Positions 43,254 to 43,981 of a stretch of DNA of 64,000 bases are shown here, piece after piece. The position numbers were made by a program, and so were the translations under genes. The DNA is from Desulfovibrio gilichinskyi (GTDB lineage: Bacteria > Desulfobacterota > Desulfovibrionia > Desulfovibrionales > Desulfovibrionaceae): positions 434,001 to 498,000 of the forward strand of contig NZ_FWZU01000003.1 of assembly GCF_900177375.1 (NCBI RefSeq), read 5' to 3'. The notes beneath the pieces were generated by a model, which saw nothing but the letters and a program-made list of their open reading frames with translations, was not told the origin of the DNA and did not search any database. How positions within the stretch are numbered: the first letter of the stretch is position 1; the number at the start of each line of letters is the position of its first letter.

Positions 43254-43322
43254 AGTATAAAAAATTAAACCTCAATCGGGATGAATAGTCGAGATGTGAT
43301 AGTTCAGTATAAAATGTTGAAC
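43253..43322. promoter_or_regulatory. Paired upstream motif, cassette 1
   Basis: TAGTATAAAAAATTAAAC at 43253-43270 and CAGTATAAAATGTTGAAC at 43305-43322 share an 18-bp form. The ends are 52 bp apart and the second ends 89 bp before the promoter. Probable enhancer-binding-protein sites. Confidence 0.65.
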
Positions 43323-43410
43323 TTTTTGTCTGATTTCTGTGAAGTATATTTTTTGTATAAAACTTTTATATTACAGCATGTTAAGTTTGAATAAGTCTCT
43401 TTTTATTTTT

Positions 43411-43425
43411 TGGCACGCGAGTTGC
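43411..43425 (+). promoter_or_regulatory. Sigma54 promoter, cassette 1
   Basis: TGGCAC-GCGAG-TTGC matches the TGGCACG-N4-TTGC consensus with the exact GG-N10-GC spacing. Expected transcript start is about 43437. Confidence 0.88.
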
Positions 43426-43436
43426 TATATTAAAGT

Positions 43437-43504
43437 TACCTTCATTCTTTTGCTGAGATTAAATCGAAAACAGGCCCCGCCGGATACCACCGGCGGGGCT
43501 TTTT
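43437..43504 (+). ncRNA. Predicted sigma54-dependent sRNA, copy 1
   Basis: A transcript of about 68 nt, from the start predicted 12 nt after the -12 element to the terminator T-run. The 5' part (UUACCUUCAUUCUUUUGC and on to GAGAUUAAAU) is the same in copy 2. The terminator hairpin is GCCCCGCCGG/CCGGCGGGGC. No start codon with ribosome site or open frame exists, so it should be non-coding. The 60-bp block spanning promoter and 5' RNA (43405-43464) differs from copy 2 at one base. Function unknown; base-pairing regulation by the single-stranded 5' part is the simplest idea. Confidence 0.72.
43474..43504 (+). terminator. Terminator of sRNA copy 1
   Basis: 10-bp perfect GC stem (43474-43483 with 43490-43499), loop ATACCA, then TTTTT. 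Confidence 0.9.
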
Positions 43505-43642
43505 CGATTTTGTAGTAAAGTAGAACTTAATTGCGGGATAATTCAGAGTGAGGTTGTGGAACGTTATTTAAATTTTGAAAAATCAATTAAGCATAAATTT
43601 GTTAGTGATCGGATTCTGTATTCTTTAGAAATATCTCCTTAT

Positions 43643-43712
43643 CCGTTCAAAAAATTGAACTATGCCCCCCTGCTAACGTTGTAAACTTTAGAATGAGTAT
43701 AAAAAATTTAAC
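43643..43712. promoter_or_regulatory. Paired upstream motif, cassette 2
   Basis: CCGTTCAAAAAATTGAAC at 43643-43660 (a perfect palindrome GTTCAA-N4-TTGAAC) and GAGTATAAAAAATTTAAC at 43695-43712. The ends are 52 bp apart, as in cassette 1, and the second ends 88 bp before the promoter. Confidence 0.65.
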
Positions 43713-43799
43713 TTTCTGCTATGCAGTTAGTTTTGTTTATTTTGTTAAAAATGCATATATTTTAGTATGTTATATTTGTACTTGCTGAAATTGATTTTT

Positions 43800-43814
43800 T
43801 GGCACGCGAGTTGC
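43800..43814 (+). promoter_or_regulatory. Sigma54 promoter, cassette 2
   Basis: TGGCAC-GCGAG-TTGC, identical core to cassette 1. Expected start is about 43826. Confidence 0.88.
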
Positions 43815-43825
43815 TGTATTAAAGT

Positions 43826-43892
43826 TACCTTCATTCTTTTGCTGAGATTAAATGAAAAAGGCCCCGCCGGATACCACCGACGGGGCCTTTTT
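43826..43892 (+). ncRNA. Predicted sigma54-dependent sRNA, copy 2
   Basis: About 67 nt with the same 5' segment as copy 1. The two differ in the linker before the terminator (CGAAAACA in copy 1, GAAAAA in copy 2), and the copy 2 stem has one C-A mismatch with a longer A/T extension. Conservation of promoter, 5' segment and hairpin while the surrounding 300 bp differ is good evidence that both are functional siblings. Confidence 0.72.
43855..43892 (+). terminator. Terminator of sRNA copy 2
   Basis: GGCCCCGCCGG (43860-43870) pairs with CCGACGGGGCC (43877-43887) with one mismatch. AAAAA before and TTTTT after extend the stem. Confidence 0.88.
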
Positions 43893-43894
43893 CG

Positions 43895-43981
43895 TTTGAT
43901 GCGGTGACTTCAGATGCAAAAGAGCTGCTCAACCGTTGCGGCATAAAGGTTTTTAAGTCTGTTCAAGAATTTATACCGTAA
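43895..43981 (+). pseudogene. Possible 3' remnant of a protein gene
   Basis: A frame open from the sRNA terminator to TAA at 43979 reads FDAVTSDAKELLNRCGIKVF and on to SVQEFIP, which looks like the end of a real protein. It lacks a start and is probably a leftover of a gene truncated when the cassette arrived. The family is not identified; chance is possible. Confidence 0.3.

Follow-up and report, generated by a model that had tools for sequence, protein, structure and literature searches.

The Qrr RNAs of Vibrio are several sibling small RNAs made from sigma-54 promoters under the control of the NtrC-type regulator LuxO, and they act by base-pairing with mRNAs. Other small RNAs that depend on sigma-54 are GlmY (activated by GlrR), CrcZ/CrcY (activated by CbrB), and NrsZ (activated by NtrC). 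Tandem sibling RNAs with anti-Shine-Dalgarno motifs are represented by NmsR/RcoF of Neisseria and by the alphaproteobacterial AbcR and CcsR; we know of no sigma-54 dependence in these. Closest in lineage are the sigma-54 ncRNAs of Desulfovibrio vulgaris Hildenborough, with Dv_sRNA2 under DVU0679 and others under DVU0653, DVU2359, and DVU1419, three of the four being located near their own activator gene (PMC3333781, PMC4641369).

We analyzed a 64-kb stretch of Desulfovibrio gilichinskyi DNA (the window), for which a sequence-only reading had proposed two sibling sigma-54-dependent small RNAs. This remains the best-supported reading of the locus at the level of DNA sequence: promoter, predicted start, 5' segment, terminator, and paired upstream sites are conserved jointly in many genomes, so that the sigma-54 promoter and the predicted RNA are strongly supported.

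Two tandem cassettes and their predicted RNAs

By their gene sequences, the neighbors of the two cassettes are a Sua5/YrdC-type gene on one side and a nudix gene followed by glgA and glgB on the other. The 60-bp blocks at 43405-43464 and 43794-43853 differ at 1 of 60 positions, just as the earlier reading had stated. The sequence TGGCACGCGAGTTGC occurs exactly at 43411 and 43800, and these are the only two exact matches to TGGCAC-N5-TTGC in the window, with ~0.08 expected from base composition. Both cassettes thus have the -24/-12 promoter that marks a sigma-54-dependent gene, and the two exact promoters claimed before hold up. The element, TTGGCACGCGAGTTGCT on the plus strand at 43410-43426 in cassette 1 and at 43799-43815 in cassette 2, recurs in the family and is an excellent match to the published Desulfovibrio sigma-54 consensus tGGcacg/tTGCt (PMC4641369). 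With the C of TTGC placed at -12, transcription is predicted to start at 43437 and 43826, the positions named by the sequence-only reading. The conserved block opens at this predicted +1 and conservation is lower at -11 to -1, a contrast that is partly a search effect, as promoter and initial RNA bases were prescribed by the search pattern. One species of the genus has three cassettes spread over ~13 kb, one of them inverted (G003:C2:249000-266500), and the -12 element of these cassettes reads ATGC, not TTGC.

Promoter, terminator, and conservation together define a predicted small RNA of ~68 nt at 43437-43505 and a second one of ~67 nt at 43826-43893, both on the plus strand and with the same 5' segment. 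The first would end at an intrinsic terminator hairpin (43472-43501, plus strand) indicated by folding, terminator scan, and covariation, the second at a hairpin (43854-43893, plus strand) indicated by folding and terminator scan. The scan lists the latter on the minus strand, its stem being flanked by an A-run and a T-run. Both hairpins appear in the scan, their fold z-scores are -5.3 and -5.7, and none of 200 shuffles is equally stable, which bears out the GC-rich terminators claimed previously. Within the genus, the terminator stem covaries, with compensatory changes in 7 of 11 pairs. Neither RNA contains a start codon with a ribosome site, in agreement with the earlier statement that no coding frame with such a site lies inside; the sole ATG, at the base of the cassette 2 terminator stem, is absent from cassette 1. 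A small ORF was rejected as an explanation, as we found no conserved one in the cassettes.

The 5' end of the RNA, UACCUUC...CUUUUGC, is pyrimidine-rich, conserved, and located outside the terminator stem. Nucleotides 1-20 of small RNA 1 (UACCUUCAUUCUUUUGCUGA) form a conserved, mostly unpaired, pyrimidine-rich segment; folding leaves the first nine bases mostly unpaired in both window RNAs, and the first 16 bases have a mean pyrimidine content of 84%. ACCUUCA and CUUUUGCUGA are near-invariant within the genus. The RNAs hence combine a covarying terminator with a conserved unpaired 5' segment, as expected of intrinsically terminated trans-acting small RNAs. They might also sequester a protein in the manner of a CsrA/RsmA sponge instead of pairing with mRNAs, since several copies have a GGA atop the terminator stem. 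Other copies (L036 and L041 among them) and the folded RNA of genus g40 lack the GGA, however, and the constant part of the molecule is the 5' pyrimidine segment. We rejected the sponge because the GGA is not conserved, and we consider it very unlikely.

Conservation of the cassettes across the order

Cassettes are present in all 17 genomes of the genus, with two or three in each and usually in tandem. Conservation in other Desulfovibrionaceae had been named as a check by the sequence-only reading and was indeed found: a pattern restricted to the promoter plus the initial seven or eight bases of the RNA matches 86 of 288 genomes of the family, which represent 15 of its 44 genera, and the reversed pattern matches none. 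These matches share features that lie outside the pattern, namely a terminator, the upstream palindromes described below, and, in the majority, the CUUUUGC stretch. Two matches (L051/L081 in G046 and L079 in G140) were treated as chance, as the rest of the family's features is absent there. At E<=0.01, profile R1 has matches in 193 of the 247 genomes that represent the order, with several families among them; the weakest matches are uncertain and may be other sigma-54 promoters. Profile loci from several families that we read in detail are nearly all convincing cassettes, and named matches include Nitratidesulfovibrio liaohensis, N. oxamicus, Desulfovibrio sp. A2, and two Desulfohalobiaceae assemblies.

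The strong likeness of the two window copies would also be expected if one or both were non-functional products of a recent duplication. Related genomes, however, keep two or three copies complete with activator sites, promoter, and terminator, which makes this the least credible of the explanations considered here. By eye, the promoter-to-start spacer looks more alike within a genome than between species (window 43411 and 43800, L032, L040, L041, and L042), while the flanks of the same cassettes look orthologous, which suggests gene conversion among the siblings.

A genome that apparently belongs to Nitratidesulfovibrio (G053, genus g38) has one cassette between a Sua5-type gene and nudix-glgA-glgB. 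These are the same neighbors as in the window, and the locus thus looks old. In G028, from another genus, cassettes are found at two loci, L044 and L249, one of which has two copies and the other only one. The location of the genus cassettes upstream of nudix-glgA-glgB could mean that the elements are regulatory DNA or leaders of these downstream genes, with the hairpins acting as attenuators rather than ending free RNAs. Against this, the same kind of cassette is found beside other genes in other genera, the hairpins have no coupled start codon, and the first terminator is followed by a second complete cassette. We consider it highly improbable that the cassettes are such regulatory DNA or leaders.

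Upstream palindromes and the candidate activator

The earlier reading contained no activator sites and described the sequence between the cassettes as not conserved. The latter holds only in part, as two conserved palindromes precede each promoter. In the genus, each cassette has two copies of the palindrome GTWNAAAANNTTNWAC, located 155-158 and 103-106 bp upstream of the -24 element; the copies are thus 52 bp apart, corresponding to five helical turns. For cassette 1, the putative distal activator site GTATAAAAAATTAAAC (43255-43270, plus strand) is an exact match to GTNNAAAANNTTNNAC, with its position relative to the promoter kept in relatives, and the putative proximal site GTATAAAATGTTGAAC (43307-43322, plus strand) follows 52 bp from it. 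For cassette 2, the putative distal and proximal sites GTTCAAAAAATTGAAC (43645-43660) and GTATAAAAAATTTAAC (43697-43712), again on the plus strand, match the palindrome and are conserved in placement. We compared 63 distinct cassettes from across the order: a site that agrees at 10 or more of 12 positions is present in 97% of them and in 8% of shuffles, and a pair spacing of 51-53 bp predominates; other genera often have one good palindrome, located closer to the promoter. The upstream activator sites expected for sigma-54 promoters are thus present as putative sequence elements, and their conservation strongly supports the assignment of the palindromes as activator sites.

A double site with fewer than three mismatches was not found elsewhere in the D. 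gilichinskyi genome, beyond these two genes. The combination of site and promoter has 34 matches in the 17 genus genomes, 33 of which are at cassette loci, and the control gives 0; the single match outside the cassettes was judged to be chance. As this layout is essentially confined to the cassettes, the activator seems to be dedicated to the sibling RNAs, at least with this arrangement of sites. One additional activator-like palindrome with one mismatch (GTTCAAGAATTTATAC, 43961-43976) is located downstream of cassette 2 and is not followed by a sigma-54 promoter. As there are relatives with three cassettes, it may be what is left of a third one here.

We found no gene for an enhancer-binding protein in the several kb of cassette flanks examined and thus rejected an adjacent gene as the source of the activator. 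The D. gilichinskyi genome encodes 26 clear sigma-54 activators. Two reduced genomes that keep the RNA encode far fewer, two in G196 (1.41 Mb, one contig) and three in G131 (1.6 Mb), and the only kind common to both is one response regulator of ~457 amino acids that combines a receiver, a sigma-54, and a Fis-type domain and contains the motif GSFTGA. It is encoded in D. gilichinskyi at G000:C4:61090-62463, where it adjoins a histidine kinase gene and follows aminotransferase-like, pgi-like, and histidine kinase-like genes, with a glutamine synthetase gene nearby. This gene order is, we presume, that of DVU3223-DVU3220 in D. vulgaris, and the kinase and regulator are probably orthologues of DVU3221 and DVU3220. 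No kinase gene was seen beside the regulator in G196 and G131. PMC3333781 counts DVU3220 as one of just two response regulators that all Desulfovibrio share, and no binding motif was assigned to it in PMC4641369. A DVU3220 gel shift on the ammonium-transporter operon (PMC3333781), together with the nearby glutamine synthetase gene, hints at a nitrogen signal, but is a hint, no more.

Since the two reduced genomes have a single kind of activator in common, we infer by elimination that the order-wide DVU3220-type response regulator is most likely the activator. With copies found in 244 of the order's 247 genomes, it is too widespread for its presence to be very informative by itself. Its C-terminal recognition helix is nearly invariant across the order, as expected if the site that it binds is unchanged too. 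In a g40 clade (G161, G163, G157, G165, G153, G190, G130, G148, G195, and G123; loci L276-L281, L283, L284, L287, and L288) the regulator is more diverged, with 57-62% identity, and profile R1 gives no match or marginal ones only, which counts against the proposed link. The RNA may have been lost or altered in this clade; an altered recognition helix was rejected as the cause, as the helix is unchanged where read.

The cassettes could be genuine sigma-54 siblings and yet respond to another activator, FlrA-like, of the DVU1419 type, or differing by lineage. The absence of an activator gene next to any cassette examined and the large set of activators in D. gilichinskyi are compatible with this, and the three genomes lacking the favored regulator are drafts, two of which (G147 and G167) carry the RNA. 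On the other hand, different families have the same activator site, and only the DVU3220 type is shared by the two reduced, RNA-bearing genomes. The FlrA-like candidate is missing from G196, and the motif published for the probable counterpart of this candidate in D. vulgaris, yGTCA-N6-TGACr (PMC4641369), is a different one. Another activator therefore appears unlikely, though it deserves more weight than the sponge, leader, or duplicate explanations, and we retain the DVU3220-type regulator as the favored candidate.

Proposed mechanism and relation to known systems

We envisage each cassette as a sigma-54-dependent gene for a trans-acting small RNA of ~68 nt. An NtrC-class response regulator would bind the two palindromes 52 bp apart, whose first bases lie ~130 and 182 bp upstream of the transcription start, and would activate RpoN polymerase at the -24/-12 promoter. 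The resulting RNA would start at UACCUUC and end at the terminator, and its mostly unpaired, pyrimidine-rich 5' segment would probably pair with purine-rich ribosome-binding sites of target mRNAs, thereby repressing translation. As with sibling RNAs elsewhere, having two or three copies may provide dosage or redundancy. We infer transcription, the identity of the activator, and the mode of pairing from sequence comparison, and we regard the entire chain, from response regulator via sigma-54 and sibling RNAs to masked ribosome-binding sites, as probable. The g40 RNA reads UACCUUCCUUUCUUUUGC...CCUCCUCC and is complementary to Shine-Dalgarno sequences. For generic Shine-Dalgarno sequences the energy gain over shuffles is modest, and pairing with ribosome sites is thus only presumed.

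We searched for targets with the reverse complement of both conserved RNA segments. The D. gilichinskyi genome contains an excess of matches over the control, mostly away from gene starts in the stretches read, and we found no conserved gene-start site complementary to both segments in this genome and in distant species. The clearest gene-start match lies in codons 2-6 of an infA-like (IF-1) gene (L334, G000:C1:434700-436800, around base 1037), which could form ~14 pairs with the RNA, with one bulge. The matches read in three more distant species fall in other genes, so we do not claim infA as a target, and the pairing may be coincidental, owing to the codons for AKEEG. We rejected feedback of the RNA on the mRNA of the regulator itself, as the two pair weakly.

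A wider proposal, which we offer tentatively and hold to be possible rather than probable, is that of a core small-RNA regulon of the order. Here, a near-universal regulator would have a dedicated output of one to several sibling RNAs whose 5' end resembles the anti-Shine-Dalgarno tail of 16S rRNA and which would thus broadly lower the translation of a set of mRNAs. If this were true, the regulator would act through RNA, not on protein genes. Through the analysis, what were two nameless repeats between genes become members of an RNA family that most of this order of sulfate reducers shares, and the RNAs are a candidate output, open to test, for a near-ubiquitous response regulator to whose probable D. 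vulgaris orthologue published work could not assign a motif.

The family was not found in Rfam or in the literature accessible to the search, and the earlier suggestion that it may be undescribed thus survives. Like the D. vulgaris ncRNAs, the RNAs come from the same order and combine sigma-54 promoters with small RNAs of no known function. The DVU0653, DVU0679, and DVU2359 ncRNAs are near their own activator gene, whereas the flanks examined here contain none; the published locations set our RNAs apart from these three, the fourth (upstream of DVU3282, DVU1419) being outside the comparison. With GlmY, CrcZ/CrcY, and NrsZ they would share activation through sigma-54 and an enhancer-binding protein, but they are shorter, pyrimidine-rich at the 5' end, and match no Rfam family. 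NmsR/RcoF, AbcR, and CcsR resemble them in their near-identical copies and short unpaired anti-ribosome-site motifs; again, no Rfam match links the RNAs described here to them.

The Vibrio Qrr analogy drawn by the sequence-only reading stands for architecture, with a sigma-54 promoter, several siblings, an NtrC-type regulator as the likely activator, and probable pairing with mRNAs. It does not extend to sequence or homology: Rfam scans gave nothing at curated cut-offs and only chance-level matches, with Qrr absent even at E<=10, and the candidate regulator scores 401 bits against a LuxO cut-off of 800 and thus is not classified as LuxO. The cassettes also differ from qrr genes in being tandem at one locus. 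On comparison with Rfam and with three of the D. vulgaris ncRNAs, we file the RNAs as a new family within a known class, that of sibling small RNAs that depend on sigma-54; they resemble Qrr in their presumed working but are not Qrr members. If the link to the regulator is true, a two-component regulator present almost throughout the order would gain a defined RNA regulon, and the design of LuxO and Qrr would have a counterpart in distant bacteria.
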